Origin: Nodularia sp. LEGE 06071
GTDB taxonomy: Bacteria; Cyanobacteriota; Cyanobacteriia; Cyanobacteriales; Nostocaceae
NCBI RefSeq assembly: GCF_015207755.1
Contig: NZ_JADEWH010000001.1
Span: forward strand, 744,001 to 808,000
Length of the DNA stretch: 64,000 nucleotides
Direction of reading: 5' to 3'
Shown here: positions 49,992 to 56,908 of the stretch, piece after piece
Numbering within the stretch: the first letter of the stretch is position 1
How the letters are laid out: each line of letters opens with the position of its first letter
Position numbers and translations under genes: made by a program
The notes under the pieces: generated by a model
Told to the model about the DNA's origin: nothing
The model's input: the letters and a program-made list of their open reading frames with translations, nothing else
Databases searched by the model: none

Positions 49992-50612
49992 GTGACAGAA
50001 GAAGATATCAGAATCAGGCGGCATTATATACCAGACGAAGTTTGGGAAAGAAGTCATAATACATGGAAACAACTTAAGCCAAGACGCAACTTTAACTATG
50101 GTCTTGATCCTTCCAATGAAACATCTGTAGAATATTCACAGAGGATAACATCAATATTTAAAAATATTCCTAGAGACGTACTTATTCAGTGGCAATTTGA
50201 GCATATCTATCACTTTGATATGATAAATAACTATGGGTGGATTGATTACCATAAGGTTTATTTTAGCCTTGTAAATTGGTCTGAAAAGGAGTTGTCCAAG
50301 GTACAAGTATTTTCAGGTTTTAAGGATTATGTAGATTGCAGAAGTCGTATATCAGATTTTGAGGCTCTCCCATGCACTGAGGAAGATAAAAATTATTGGC
50401 TACAGTTTGGAACTTGGCAGCTTCCGATAATTGTCTTAAATACTCAAAATATAATTAACGTACCAAATTATGCAGAATTAAATTGTCCATACCAGATTGT
50501 AGAAGGACATACGCGGTTTGGACACTACAATGCGATTAAATTCTTAAGTGAGCAAGGAAAGGCTCAAGTATCAAACAAACACAAAGTTTTTCTGATGTCT
50601 GTAGCTGAATAA
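49992..50612 (+). CDS. Unknown protein inserted between ndhF1 and ndhD1
   Basis: A 206-residue soluble protein starting at a GTG (49992). It is acidic and rich in Tyr, Trp and Asn, and is more AT-rich than the ndh genes. No domain is certain. The segment IVLNTQNIINVPNYAELNCP followed by YQIVEGHTRFGHYNAIKFL resembles the E-G-[HN]-x-R motif of ParB/sulfiredoxin-like nuclease and kinase folds, in which such a motif binds nucleotide. It is flanked by a repeat (49844) and a palindromic repeat (50676), suggesting insertion. The function is unknown. Confidence 0.65.
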   Translation: MTEEDIRIRRHYIPDEVWERSHNTWKQLKPRRNFNYGLDPSNETSVEYSQRITSIFKNIPRDVLIQWQFEHIYHFDMINNYGWIDYHKVYFSLVNWSEKELSKVQVFSGFKDYVDCRSRISDFEALPCTEEDKNYWLQFGTWQLPIIVLNTQNIINVPNYAELNCPYQIVEGHTRFGHYNAIKFLSEQGKAQVSNKHKVFLMSVAE

Positions 50613-52841: not shown

Positions 52842-55800
52842 CTAGCTATGCCAAGCTTGATAAAACGCTGGATAAGTCATAGTTTGGGCGCAGTGCCAGA
52901 TAACTTTGTAAGCCTCATTTGATAAGTGATTTTTTAAAGTGGTGACAACTGCTGCCATATTCTCAGCTTCTGTTAACAATTTTCTTAAACTCTCTGCCGC
53001 TAGCCTACGGATATCTTCAGATTGAGAATCACGAATTAACTCCACTAATGCAGTGATCGCAGTGGGATTATTGGGTGCTATATTTCTTAAACTCTCTGCC
53101 GCTAGCCTACGGATATATTCAGATTGAGAATCACGAATTAACTCCACTAATGCAGTGATAGCAGTGGGATTATTGGGTGCTATTTTTCCTAAACTCTCTG
53201 CCGCTTGCCAACGGGTATCTTCAGATTGAGAATCACGAATTAACTCCACTAATGCAGTGATAGCAGTGGGATTATTGGGTGCTATTTTTCCTAAACTCTC
53301 TGCCGCTTGCCAACGGGTATATTCAGATTGAGAATCACGAATTAACTCCTCTAATGCAGTGATAGCAGTGGGATTATTGGGTGCTATTTTTGCTAAAATC
53401 AATGCCGCTTGCCTACGGGTATCTTCAGATTGAGAATCATGAATTAACTCCACTAATGCAGTGATAGCAGTGGGATTATTGGGTGCTATTTTTCCTAAAA
53501 TCAATGCCGCTTGCATACGGATATCTTCAGATTGAGAATCACGAATTAACTCCACTAATGCAGTGATAGCAGTGGGATTATTGGGTGCTATTTTTCCTAA
53601 ACTCTCTGCCGCTTGCATACGAGTCGATTTAGATTGAGAATCACGAATTAACTCCACTAATGCAGTGATAGCAGTGGGATTATTGGGTGCTATTTTTTCC
53701 AAAATCAATGCCGCTTGCCTACGGGTATCTTCAGATTGAGAATCATGAATTAACTCCACTAATTCAGTGATCACAGTGGGATCATTGGGTGCTATTTTTC
53801 CTAAAATCAATGCCGCTTGCCTACGGGTATCTTCAGATTGAGAATCACGAATTAACTCCTCTAATGCAGTGATTACAGTGGGATTATTGGGTGCTATTTT
53901 TCCTAAAATCTCTGCCGCTTGCATACGAGTATCTTTATCTTGAGAATCACGAATTAACTCCTCTAATGCAGTGACCGCAGTGGGATTATTGGCTGCTATT
54001 TTTCCTAAAGTCGATGCCGCTTGCATACGGGTATATTCAGATTGAGAATCACGAATTAACTCCACTAATGCAGTGATCGCAGTGGGATTATTGGCTGCTA
54101 TTTTTCCTAAAGTCGATGCCGCTTGCATACGGGTATATTCATCTTGAGAATCACGAATTAACTCCACTAATGCAGTGATCACAGTGGGATTATTGGGTGC
54201 TATTTTTTCTAAGATCAATGCCACTTGCCAACGGGTATCTTCATCTTGAGAATCACGAATTAACTCCACTAATGCAGTGATCACAGTGGGATTATTGGGT
54301 GCTATTTTTTCTAAAATCTGTGCCGCTTGCCAACGGGTATCTTCATCTTGAGAATCACGAATTAACTCCACTAATGCAGTGATCACAGTGGGATTATTCG
54401 GTGCTATATTTTCTAAAATCAATGCCGCTTGCCAACGGGTATATTCATCTTGAGAATCACGAATTAACTCCACTAATGCAGTGATCGCAGTGGGATTATG
54501 CGGCGCTATTTTTCCTAACCTATCTGCCGCTTGCCTACGGATATATTCATCTTGAGAATCACGAATTAACTCTTCTAATGCAGTGATAGCTTTTTTGTGA
54601 TCTGTTTCTATGAGTACAGCCCTAGCATTCTGTGCTTTAATATTTAAATAACCAAAGCCCCATCTGACGATTTGCTGCACAATTGCATCTGCCAAACCAC
54701 AATCTTTAAACTCGGCAATTCCGGCCGCGGCTAGAAAATAGGCACGGTATTCATAAAATCCTTTCCAATCAGGAATTTGACTCTGACTTTTACACCCATC
54801 CTCAAATTCTACCAATGCCTGAATAAATTCTTTCTTCTGCTCTTCTTTTTTCTGCTCTTTTTTTATATCTTCTCGTCCCAACCACAGCAAAATTACCTCT
54901 TTCCACTGTGGTTCAAATATGCGATAGGTTCCTTGTTCTGGGTTCTCAGGAACGTGATTCAGAAAATAGTCCCAATCCTCAACAGCTAAGGCTGCAAAAT
55001 ATTCCTCAAAGGTGGCATGGTAGAAGGCATAAACTTTTTCTTGGCTGGGAGATTCAGCCGCAATTCCTACATGATTTAGCCAGCCGAGTTGTAATGCTTG
55101 GTAAAATAGTGAAGTTTCATCATCTGGATATCCCAGTTCCTCACTGATAAAACTTTCCCGCAACCGGAACCGCGAACTACCTTCATTGATATCCCGCAGG
55201 GCTAAACTTCCTAAAGCTTGGTTTAACTCTCGTTTTTCTTTTTTCTGGGTGGGGAAACGGTTTTGTTTCCAAGTGTAGAACTGCTGCACACACTGAGAAT
55301 ACAGTCCCGCCTTGGTCTCTGGTAAATTCCCCTCTTCACTTTGCCACATACTACATAACAGCGTTAACCGCAGGGGAGTTTGCACCAAATCCCGCAAGCG
55401 CACCCGTTCAGTTGAGTTTAATTCTGTCTTTAACCGTTCTCCTTTTTCAATATCTTCCACAAACCAGTTATCAATAAACTGATGCACCTGTTGGGGATAG
55501 TCAAAGTCCAGTAGGCGATAGGTTTCAAAGGTTTCTAGGGCATTACGATCTGCTTGCCAAACATTTAGCCGACAAGTTAACACTACCCGCGATGAACGCC
55601 CTACCCATCCAGTTAACTGACGAGAAATTTCTTCTAATGGCTGTTGAGACGCTGAACCTGCTGATATTTCATCCACCCCATCCAACAGCAGCCACACTCG
55701 CCCTTGCTGAATTTGGTTTGTCAAGTCATCCCGGACTTCTTGAGTTAGTTGTGTGGGCAGAATTGCTTGCTGAAGCCAATTTTGATCTATATAGGTTTGA

Positions 55801-56510
55801 ATATCTGTAAAATTGCCATTTCGCGCCAAGTCTGCTAGAGAAATCCAGATTGGTAAGCCTAAATATTTGTCTAATACCCAAAAAGCAACGGTTTGCAGTA
55901 GAGTTGTTTTCCCTGCACCCGGTTCTCCAATTACTGCTATCTGCTTACCTTTGGTTTTACCTTCGCCCTGTTCTAGAATTTGACTGAAAAAAGCTTCATG
56001 TTCAAATCGCTGCTGGGTTTCATACTCCGGTTCATAAAGACGTGTTCCCGCATCTGGCAAAAAGTCCTCTTTGTTGCGTTTCTCTGGTTTCTTTCTCTCC
56101 ACCAGTGCTAGGGGAACATAAATCTGCTTTCTTTCTTTTTTGGCGGATTCATCTTGCATCAGAAGGTTGCTGGTTATCCGGCGCTGCGGTTCCAGCATTT
56201 TGTTACATACTTCGCGCCAGTTGATGAGAGTCGTTGTAGTTTCAGGTGGCGGAGTCGTAGGTATTTCATCGATTAAGTCTGTTAGTTCTAAATTTAAGGC
56301 TTTGGCGATCGCAATGGCACTTTTCTTGCTAACAGTTGTACCACTGAAAAACCGTTCAACAGTTTTTTCACTTACACCCGCTTCCGTCGCAATATCCAAG
56401 TCAGTCCAAAGGTTGCCATCATAATCACGTTTCGCTGCTTTAGCCTCTTGTAGTTTCTCTTTTCCTTTTGCATTGACTCCAACACTATTGCGGTTCCGTG
56501 TTTCTCCCAT
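52842..56510 (-). CDS. HTH-NACHT-HEAT repeat protein (bacterial NLR-like)
   Basis: A 1222-residue STAND protein. Residues 35-80 form an XRE-like helix-turn-helix (LDIATEAGVSEKTVERFFSG). A NACHT NTPase follows: Walker A GEPGAGKT at 195-202, Walker B VWLLLDGVDE at 272-281, sensor-like VVLTCRLNVW at 309-318, and the winged-helix/FYHATFEEYFAAL segment at 496-508. Residues 637-1180 are sixteen 34-residue HEAT-like repeats; a 42-residue cap ends the protein. The layout of N-terminal module, NACHT switch and repeat sensor is that of NLR-like proteins, some of which (bNACHT) defend against phage. An HTH may instead mean gene control. No canonical effector domain is seen. Confidence 0.9.
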   Translation of the reverse strand: MGETRNRNSVGVNAKGKEKLQEAKAAKRDYDGNLWTDLDIATEAGVSEKTVERFFSGTTVSKKSAIAIAKALNLELTDLIDEIPTTPPPETTTTLINWREVCNKMLEPQRRITSNLLMQDESAKKERKQIYVPLALVERKKPEKRNKEDFLPDAGTRLYEPEYETQQRFEHEAFFSQILEQGEGKTKGKQIAVIGEPGAGKTTLLQTVAFWVLDKYLGLPIWISLADLARNGNFTDIQTYIDQNWLQQAILPTQLTQEVRDDLTNQIQQGRVWLLLDGVDEISAGSASQQPLEEISRQLTGWVGRSSRVVLTCRLNVWQADRNALETFETYRLLDFDYPQQVHQFIDNWFVEDIEKGERLKTELNSTERVRLRDLVQTPLRLTLLCSMWQSEEGNLPETKAGLYSQCVQQFYTWKQNRFPTQKKEKRELNQALGSLALRDINEGSSRFRLRESFISEELGYPDDETSLFYQALQLGWLNHVGIAAESPSQEKVYAFYHATFEEYFAALAVEDWDYFLNHVPENPEQGTYRIFEPQWKEVILLWLGREDIKKEQKKEEQKKEFIQALVEFEDGCKSQSQIPDWKGFYEYRAYFLAAAGIAEFKDCGLADAIVQQIVRWGFGYLNIKAQNARAVLIETDHKKAITALEELIRDSQDEYIRRQAADRLGKIAPHNPTAITALVELIRDSQDEYTRWQAALILENIAPNNPTVITALVELIRDSQDEDTRWQAAQILEKIAPNNPTVITALVELIRDSQDEDTRWQVALILEKIAPNNPTVITALVELIRDSQDEYTRMQAASTLGKIAANNPTAITALVELIRDSQSEYTRMQAASTLGKIAANNPTAVTALEELIRDSQDKDTRMQAAEILGKIAPNNPTVITALEELIRDSQSEDTRRQAALILGKIAPNDPTVITELVELIHDSQSEDTRRQAALILEKIAPNNPTAITALVELIRDSQSKSTRMQAAESLGKIAPNNPTAITALVELIRDSQSEDIRMQAALILGKIAPNNPTAITALVELIHDSQSEDTRRQAALILAKIAPNNPTAITALEELIRDSQSEYTRWQAAESLGKIAPNNPTAITALVELIRDSQSEDTRWQAAESLGKIAPNNPTAITALVELIRDSQSEYIRRLAAESLRNIAPNNPTAITALVELIRDSQSEDIRRLAAESLRKLLTEAENMAAVVTTLKNHLSNEAYKVIWHCAQTMTYPAFYQAWHS
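52971..54602 (-). repeat. Sixteen-copy 102-bp repeat array
   Basis: Sixteen in-frame units of exactly 102 bases (34 codons). Units are nearly identical in DNA as well as protein (NNPTAITALVELIRDSQ core). Differences concentrate in codons for residues 18-23 (SED/DEY/DKD then T/I and R then W/R/M) and 27-31 of the unit, plus Ala/Val at residue 5. The high DNA identity implies recent expansion or gene conversion. The first and last units are the most diverged. Confidence 0.92.
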
Positions 56511-56683
56511 AGTTAATGTATTGGCGCGGTTGAGGATATTTCTACTTTAGGAGATTGATTGATTTTAGCAGGGTCAGAAAAGGTCATTTAATCTCTGTCC
56601 CTGTCCTGTCCTTAAATGTCCAGCGTAGCACTGATCACTCAATGTACCTTTGTCTCATAACCACTTGAAACGGAGTGATGACA

Positions 56684-56908
56684 ATGACAATGGTGAATCA
56701 GAACCCACAACCAACCGCGCCAGCGAGAGAAGAAATTAATCTGAAGCCTCAGCAAGCTATCTCAGTACTTGGCTCTAATATCCCATACCAAGTTGATATT
56801 ACACCTGTATTGCTGCAAAATCCTGATAGTCCCTTTGCGATCGCCTTAAGTGTCGCCATTGTTCTGAGTGCGATCGCACGATTGATAAAAACTATAAAAT
56901 CTAGCTAG
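56684..56908 (+). CDS. Small membrane protein divergent from the NACHT gene
   Basis: About 74 residues, starting MTMVNQN from ATG 56684; GGAG at 56672-56675 sits eight bases before it (ATG 56690 and 56678 are alternatives). A disordered Pro/Gln-rich N-terminus and a short central segment (VLGSNIPYQVDITPVLLQNP) precede one transmembrane helix (FAIALSVAIVLSAIARLI) and a basic tail. Two HIP1 sites lie in the helix coding region. Function is unknown; its start lies 173 bases from that of the NACHT gene, so a shared control region is likely. Confidence 0.6.
   Translation: MTMVNQNPQPTAPAREEINLKPQQAISVLGSNIPYQVDITPVLLQNPDSPFAIALSVAIVLSAIARLIKTIKSS

Follow-up and report, generated by a model that had tools for sequence, protein, structure and literature searches.

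The bNACHT proteins of bacteria, which Kibby and colleagues are said to have described in 2023, reportedly act against phages. In excerpts of PMC12169576, two of them, bNACHT25 and bNACHT32, carry a nuclease in the N-terminal effector slot. In excerpts of two further studies, STAND/EAD systems of multicellular bacteria combine interchangeable N-terminal modules (EADs, caspase, TIR) with NTPases and repeats, helix-turn-helix (HTH) domains are already noted among the effector modules and a transcriptional response is suggested for some (PMC7159879, PMC8195603); NLR-type NTPases with exchangeable heads, HTH among them, are known in outline from the same excerpts. Here we analyze an NLR-type gene of Nodularia sp. 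LEGE 06071 (RefSeq assembly GCF_015207755.1), carried by the 64,000-nucleotide stretch of contig NZ_JADEWH010000001.1 between positions 744,001 and 808,000, hereafter called the window, whose own numbering is used throughout. Its HTH-NACHT-HEAT-NCC-H gene (52842..56510, minus strand), a divergent gene for a small membrane protein and a palindromic candidate operator between the two would together form a two-gene, divergently transcribed NLR-type conflict module with a transcriptional output, in which the membrane protein is the likely executor; we regard this reading as on balance probable.

The window protein resembles the bNACHT proteins of those excerpts in having a central NLR-type NACHT and an N-terminal effector slot, but differs from them in the HTH that fills this slot, in its HEAT array and NCC-H tail, and in the candidate operator and divergent membrane gene beside it. 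With the STAND/EAD systems its family shares interchangeable heads on an NTPase with repeats, whereas an HTH accompanied by a divergent membrane gene and by an operator both conserved and unique in its genome, which would offer a concrete target, was not met in the excerpts of PMC7159879 and PMC8195603. The NCBIfam models of anti-phage NACHT proteins are matched locally and far under their cut-offs (EruA, 45.9 of 1000 bits; DS8, 31.7-34.3 of 790), while the best PADLOC matches fall on the HEAT stretches and the NTPase matches mad8 alone, weakly (E 2.5e-4). Our literature search, which left subscription papers mostly outside and is weak evidence of novelty, recognised no HTH-NACHT operator, divergent membrane gene or exchange between HTH-NACHT and HTH-TIR proteins.

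The coordinates and the length of 1222 residues in the initial annotation, made from the letters of the sequence, are exact, but the open reading frame (ORF) lies on the minus strand, where it runs from an ATG at 56510 to a stop codon ending at 52842; the plus-strand frame across the same interval is riddled with stops. The NTPase (residues 190-350; 55461..55943, minus strand) matches the NACHT profile of Pfam (PF05729) with an E value of 1e-16 and 61.7 bits against a cut-off of 26.7. Its Walker A (GEPGAGKT, residues 195-202; 55905-55928) and Walker B (LLLDGVDE, residues 274-281; 55668-55691) motifs had been called intact, and among 26 aligned family members their key residues are indeed invariant, with P197 nearly so. 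In an AlphaFold2 model of residues 1-651 (26-row alignment, mean pLDDT 75.9, pTM 0.68) an NLR-type body follows the HTH, and the best 50 of the 136 PDB matches that Foldseek finds for this model at E <= 0.001 are animal NLRs or NLRP-containing oocyte assemblies, led by rabbit NOD2 (E 1.6e-13) and NLRC4 with E values of 1e-13 to 1e-12 and TM scores of about 0.4. A sequence search for solved relatives of the window protein gave nothing significant. The NLR-type architecture first proposed is borne out by these results, and so is the long repeat region, which comprises 16 HEAT-like units; an NCC-H domain at the C-terminus (NACHT C-terminal Cysteine and Histidine-containing, PF22730; residues 1196-1221; 52848..52925, minus strand) had been overlooked. 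(In one relative, L057:10701-11459, a second C-terminal domain, NCAB1, follows NCC-H.) The HTH itself (residues 36-79; 56274..56405, minus strand), described earlier as XRE-like, is borderline by sequence, since it scores 23.9 bits against a Pfam HTH_3 cut-off of 23 when residues 1-190 are scanned alone and falls to 21.4 bits, below the cut-off, in a scan of the whole protein; AlphaFold2 predicts its helices 14-26, 37-44, 48-55 and 62-71 with confidence (block pLDDT 84-89), the recognition helix lying at about residues 48-55.

Relatives of the protein are widespread. When searched with residues 1-641, 128 of the 150 related genomes give matches at E <= 1e-10, the weakest perhaps to other NACHT families; many of the strong matches start near residue 95, and the named records among the related loci are from Nostoc, Calothrix, Oscillatoria and kin. 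The loci L042-L201 together with the window yielded 163 matching ORFs, reduced to 150 by deduplication and to 131 with a nearly complete core. Across these 131 a constant core (about residues 95-640) stands behind N-terminal modules that are swapped: 46 have EAD4 (head clusters being named through Pfam on representatives only), 31 an HTH, nine a head that is unknown, five EAD10, three CHAT and two a caspase, followed by a cluster of two, one of which (L168) has a TIR, and by six singletons that include a cyclase, HEPN_Swt1 and EAD8. The other 27 are without a head in the same ORF; 24 of these are linked to an upstream module through a UGA codon, as described below, and the last three are L197 (an unrelated upstream module with the same UGA signal), L044 (a broken HTH gene) and L079 (cut by a contig end). 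In a quick LG+G4 search, which warned of several long branches, the resulting tree of the 131 cores requires 12 changes for the HTH, at least 10 of them forced by starred branches, compared with 7 changes for EAD4, 9 for the UGA-linked or headless state and 8 for the unknown heads, and starred sister pairs may differ in head, as do L068 (HTH) and L085 (UGA-linked). The swapped heads and the 12 changes place the HTH in the slot where its relatives have death-type effectors or adaptors, so that it evidently occupies the effector slot of this cyanobacterial NACHT family. An effector hidden in residues 81-160, as the initial annotation had offered among its options, can be dismissed: residues 83-94 are predicted to form a disordered linker, and what follows from about residue 95 is the conserved leader of the NACHT core (residues 95-189; 55944..56228, minus strand), kept behind whichever module precedes it. 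The HTH is not confined to NACHT proteins either. A search of the 150 relatives with residues 1-94 finds matches in 26 genomes, and the same kind of HTH is joined to a TIR and a further domain in L303 (genome G004, same genus), to a TRADD-N and DUF1822 protein in L320 and to what by eye is an apparent NB-ARC protein in L328.

Upstream of the window gene lies the palindrome CAGGGWCAGA-N15-TCTGWCCCTG (56569..56603), here CAGGGACAGA-N15-TCTGACCCTG with the core GGACAGA-N15-TCTGACC at 56572-56600. The core is 61 nt from the start of the HTH gene and 77 nt from that of the membrane gene, a spacing between two divergent genes that would be the classical layout of a regulator and its target. In the 5.58-Mb genome the pattern GGWCAGAN{13,17}TCTGWCC has a single exact match, at this locus, and its backward control has none. 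When up to one mismatch is allowed in the 7-bp arms, the site is present within 300 nt upstream of 8 of the 31 HTH-class genes and of none of 100 others, and it follows the recognition helix, accompanying seven of nine members with the helix EKTV and one of 22 with other helices (Fisher 1e-4). It also precedes the HTH-TIR gene of a sister species and, outside the set of 131, the HTH genes L310 and L313. The eight HTH-linked sites found with the arms alone (one each in G149:C39, G100:C23, G004, G000, which is the window genome, G060 and G109:C17, and two in G061:C1, the second not ahead of an obvious effector) additionally share a TTAA-like and CC-TTT interior; the candidate operator would rest on this fuller motif, on its position and on its conservation, not on the arms alone. 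On these grounds the HTH head, a candidate DNA-binding domain of the XRE/LacI-like kind, appears to bind an operator between its own gene and the divergent membrane gene. As a side observation, HTH-class genes whose recognition helix differs carry different upstream palindromes, of the GGACAGTGCA-type and GGAAGATAT-type for L088/L091 and L185/L188, which are possibly co-evolved operators.

The gene on the other side of the palindrome (56678..56908, plus strand, with alternative starts at 56675 or 56684) encodes a product of 76 residues with one predicted C-terminal transmembrane helix, and six comparisons of window-kind membrane genes with relatives give ratios of nonsynonymous to synonymous substitution (dN/dS) of 0.27-0.58, which indicate purifying selection. 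A divergent small ORF with a hydrophobic helix, starting 60-350 nt away, accompanies 15 of 29 HTH-class genes as against 6 of 95 others (Fisher 2.4e-7; seven of the 131 loci were omitted for short flanks), and all eight operator carriers have one, the ORFs being of at least three unrelated kinds by eye. The window's own kind is rare, with homologues in 6 of 198 genomes, its own included; it adjoins the HTH gene in four of them (G000, G004, G060 and G152, that of G060 being frame-broken) and is a broken remnant in G042. The pair recalls BELL-BASS, as far as excerpts of PMC7889193 describe it, in the association of an NLR with a neighbouring gene for a small membrane-type effector, but the window genes are divergent instead of adjacent or overlapping, would be coupled by an operator and share no amyloid motif apparent by eye. 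A toxin-antitoxin pair, in which toxin and DNA-binding antitoxin would share one operon, is at odds with the divergent orientation. Transcriptional output and a neighbouring effector, entered as separate options in the initial annotation, would here be joined in one candidate made up of the operator and the divergent membrane gene.

Several observations count against coupling of this kind. By the criteria used, 14 of 29 HTH members have no divergent membrane ORF and 6 of 95 genes with other heads do have one; the window-type operator is missing from 23 of the 31 HTH members. The arms-only pattern is near background: over 150 genomes it has 29 sites and its backward control 22, and without the eight sites linked to HTH genes 21 are left. 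We found no good promoter match beside the operator and no Pfam match for any of four membrane proteins scanned, and all P values are optimistic because related sequences are dependent. In the sister genome G002 a homologue of the membrane gene (67% over 52 residues) occurs at the same locus with no HTH gene in the 13 kb compared. The membrane protein may instead be a regulator, an anchor or an immunity factor, and one alternative makes it just such an accessory (anchor, immunity or trigger): the operator would only autoregulate a dangerous sensor, and the output would be at the protein level, exerted on DNA or an unlinked partner by the HTH of the oligomerised NLR. This alternative, which we consider unlikely while granting it a real chance, is in keeping with an HTH that takes the slot held elsewhere by true effectors and EAD adaptors, with an operator that also goes with an HTH on a TIR protein having its own effector, and with the unrelatedness of the three kinds of membrane ORF, as judged by eye, beside the same operator. 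It sits less well with the position of the operator between two divergent genes in 8 of 8 carriers, and with the window genome itself, where a search at E <= 0.001 gives one match, so that there is no second HTH of this kind to serve as an EAD-like homotypic partner.

The locus can be followed in five genomes of the genus between ndhD (98-99% identical) and orf79/psiE (87-95%). The window gene lies next to ndhF- and ndhD-like genes, and MalT and other known STAND transcription factors are likewise built of an HTH, a STAND module and repeats. Both facts suit a STAND-type transcription factor that regulates development or stress responses and has no connection to invaders, an explanation that we nonetheless judge improbable. 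Homologues do not always stand beside a metabolic operon, which the initial annotation had named as a sign against its own proposal: the place on the ndhD side holds different genes in the four sister genomes. Where the window genome has the HTH-NACHT-HEAT gene and the membrane gene, G004 has an HTH-TIR gene (HTH 78% identical) with the same membrane gene (81%), the operator and then a GUN4 protein, so that a TIR replaces NACHT-HEAT at the same locus; G003 has neither an HTH gene nor a membrane gene; and G001 has a Tubulin_2 protein with ZorA- and ZorB-like proteins. This difference in gene content between ndhD and orf79/psiE means that the locus behaves as a site where conflict genes turn over, a strain-variable setting, in which sister genomes carry TIR or Zorya-like genes, that is unexpected for such a regulator. 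The same is true of the effector modules that relatives carry in the HTH slot and of the diversification of the repeats, and the single exact operator leaves no wider regulon in sight and speaks against an HTH regulon in the own genome. The likely conflict or immune role put forward at the outset gains from these three features, namely swapping in the effector slot, diversifying repeats and the TIR or Zorya-like genes of sister loci; as a whole, that first interpretation survives in its architecture, its probable role and two of its output options, and loses the hidden effector.

The TIR of G004 matches ThsB1 of PADLOC (E 1.5e-62), and the likeness of the locus to Thoeris rests on this match; the TIR is a feature of the sister allele, not of the window gene. 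The label PD-T4-6 for the GUN4 protein of G004 was dropped, since the PADLOC match spans the GUN4 region only; the HTH-TIR and GUN4 genes (L347, 6746-8972) are probably an EAD-type pair by eye. In G001 the Tubulin_2, ZorA-like and ZorB-like proteins and a further ORF (L350, 3908-11300) are a possible Zorya-like conflict cluster. Between ndhF and ndhD the window also has a 206-residue ORF (49992-50612, plus strand) that is not found there in the four sister genomes and has no match in Pfam, PADLOC or NCBIfam. About 6 kb past the end of the window, an open frame of 1298 residues contains a weak NACHT match (L011, G000:C1:814129-814530), and in all the host genome has 11 NACHT matches, 6 of them above cut-off. 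The frame-broken relatives L044 and G060:C106 might be taken as signs of a decaying or selfish module that has no present function, yet the 1222-residue frame is intact and the window gene is constrained against its relatives, with dN/dS of 0.18-0.23 in the core (compared with L062 and L063) and 0.30-0.46 in the HTH (L062, L063 and L303); we consider decay very improbable. No relative was found in 50,697 phage records, and none was confirmed in one scan of IMG/VR.

The repeat array (52959..54590, minus strand) consists of 16 near-identical HEAT-like units of 34 residues, which Tandem Repeats Finder reports in the DNA as 15.8 copies of 102 bp with 92% matches. In 15 of the 16 units the proportions of synonymous (pS) and nonsynonymous (pN) differences are 0.076 and 0.107, and replacement changes crowd at unit positions 14, 16, 19, 23, 24 and 26; judging from their spacing, positions 16, 19, 23 and 26 should share one face of helix B. 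Positions 16, 19, 23, 24 and 26, fixed from the window protein, were then applied to the 37 other proteins in which five or more units are clean. There pN at the five positions exceeds pN elsewhere in 37 of 37 proteins and overall pS in 34 of 37 (Wilcoxon 1.4e-7), the mean ratio being 1.82 at the fixed positions and 0.85 elsewhere. Against this, pS is also raised at the diversified positions (mean 0.256, compared with 0.327 for pN), for which reason positive selection there is likely but not proven. Units share 82-93% of their DNA within a protein and 72-81% between orthologues (window gene, L063, L064 and L065), which points to concerted evolution, and copy number must differ greatly, since orthologues with about 80% core identity span 858 to 1378 residues. 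The analysis provides a residue map of what is presumably the recognition surface.

Taken together, these features suggest an immune sensor that acts through gene switching, not through direct cutting or killing. The HEAT array would be the recognition surface, its copies homogenised by recombination while one face of helix B diversifies. Binding of a ligand would switch the NACHT ATPase and presumably cause it to oligomerise, as in NOD2 and NLRC4. The N-terminal HTH, which would sit on the operator between its own start and the membrane-protein gene, would then occupy this site differently, thereby changing, in whichever direction, how strongly both the membrane protein and the sensor are transcribed; the membrane protein would probably execute the response through membrane damage or depolarisation. 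A bolder version, which we put forward tentatively and do not hold to be the probable one, is a "transcriptional inflammasome" in which a self-diversifying HEAT array senses the invader and, through a single genomic operator, calls up a divergent membrane-acting death protein, with sensor, regulator head and executor exchanged as independent modules. In this version NACHT-HEAT or TIR would be the sensor, the operator with its HTH the regulator head, and three kinds of small membrane protein the executor.

The UGA-linked relatives mentioned above have a different upstream module of about 145 residues, which AlphaFold2 models as helical and for which the copies tried gave no match in Pfam or by fold. 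Among 57 distinct copies, 47 end in UGA followed by C; two codons further a CG is conserved, and most also have a hairpin. The frame continues for at least 100 residues in 46 of these 47, as against 0 of the 10 copies without the element (at most 22 residues), and the first in-frame ATG, GTG or TTG lies at least 45 nt past the UGA in 44 of 47 (27 nt in the other three), often past the conserved W98 region. In an alignment of 44 elements, made up of 43 of the 47 and of L197, pairing within the 6-bp hairpin is found in 84% of cells and double changes number 42; slid controls pair in 19-49%. Against 500 shuffles, three of five measures were never reached by any shuffle, and the other two, pairs with a double change and further pair types, were not above them; RNAalifold predicted no structure for the element. 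A covariance model of the element has matches at 85 places, spread over 50 of the 150 related genomes. We examined 69 of the 70 matches in fetched loci, 20 of them identical to training sequences, and dropped L292, which is without the UGA columns. The upstream ORF has at least 123 residues in 67 of the 69 and the in-frame continuation at least 96 in 66, no other frame of these 66 running past 48 residues; as the model includes the UGA, finding this codon in all 69 is partly built in, which is not so for the reading frames. The continuations belong to the window's NACHT family and, by motif, to NB-ARC proteins, one copy of the latter being in the window genome (L274, G000:C2:103206-110250, minus strand). 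The UGA-C and hairpin link, in frame, a small helical module resembling BELL to a NACHT or NB-ARC protein in L050, L075, L101, L213, L219, L220, L223, L224, L227-L229, L231 and L232-L301, L274 included; judged by the excerpts of PMC7889193, these UGA-linked relatives resemble BELL-BASS far more than the window pair does. Selenocysteine at the UGA is unlikely, given that SelB exceeds its curated cut-off in 0 of 150 genomes and that tRNA-Sec is borderline, just above its cut-off of 47 bits (47.4-48.3) in 6 of 100 genomes, at 43.7 bits in the window genome and with several lower-scoring matches in every genome. The natural reading would be programmed UGA readthrough, by which one gene would give both a free effector and an effector-NLR fusion; the literature search, as limited as stated above and equally weak as evidence of novelty, recognised no readthrough in bacterial NLRs. 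The element probably merits a separate study.

Work on bacterial NLRs usually seeks an effector that is fused to the NTPase or binds it. The apparently effectorless NLR described here gains a specific candidate, a short gene that would be controlled from a shared operator, and the finding that one locus, with its operator and membrane gene, holds HTH-TIR in one species and HTH-NACHT-HEAT in another shows how these systems are rebuilt. If our reading is true, gene induction would join the outputs of bacterial NLRs, and the search for the effectors of HTH-headed NLRs would have a simple rule, namely to look across their divergent promoter.

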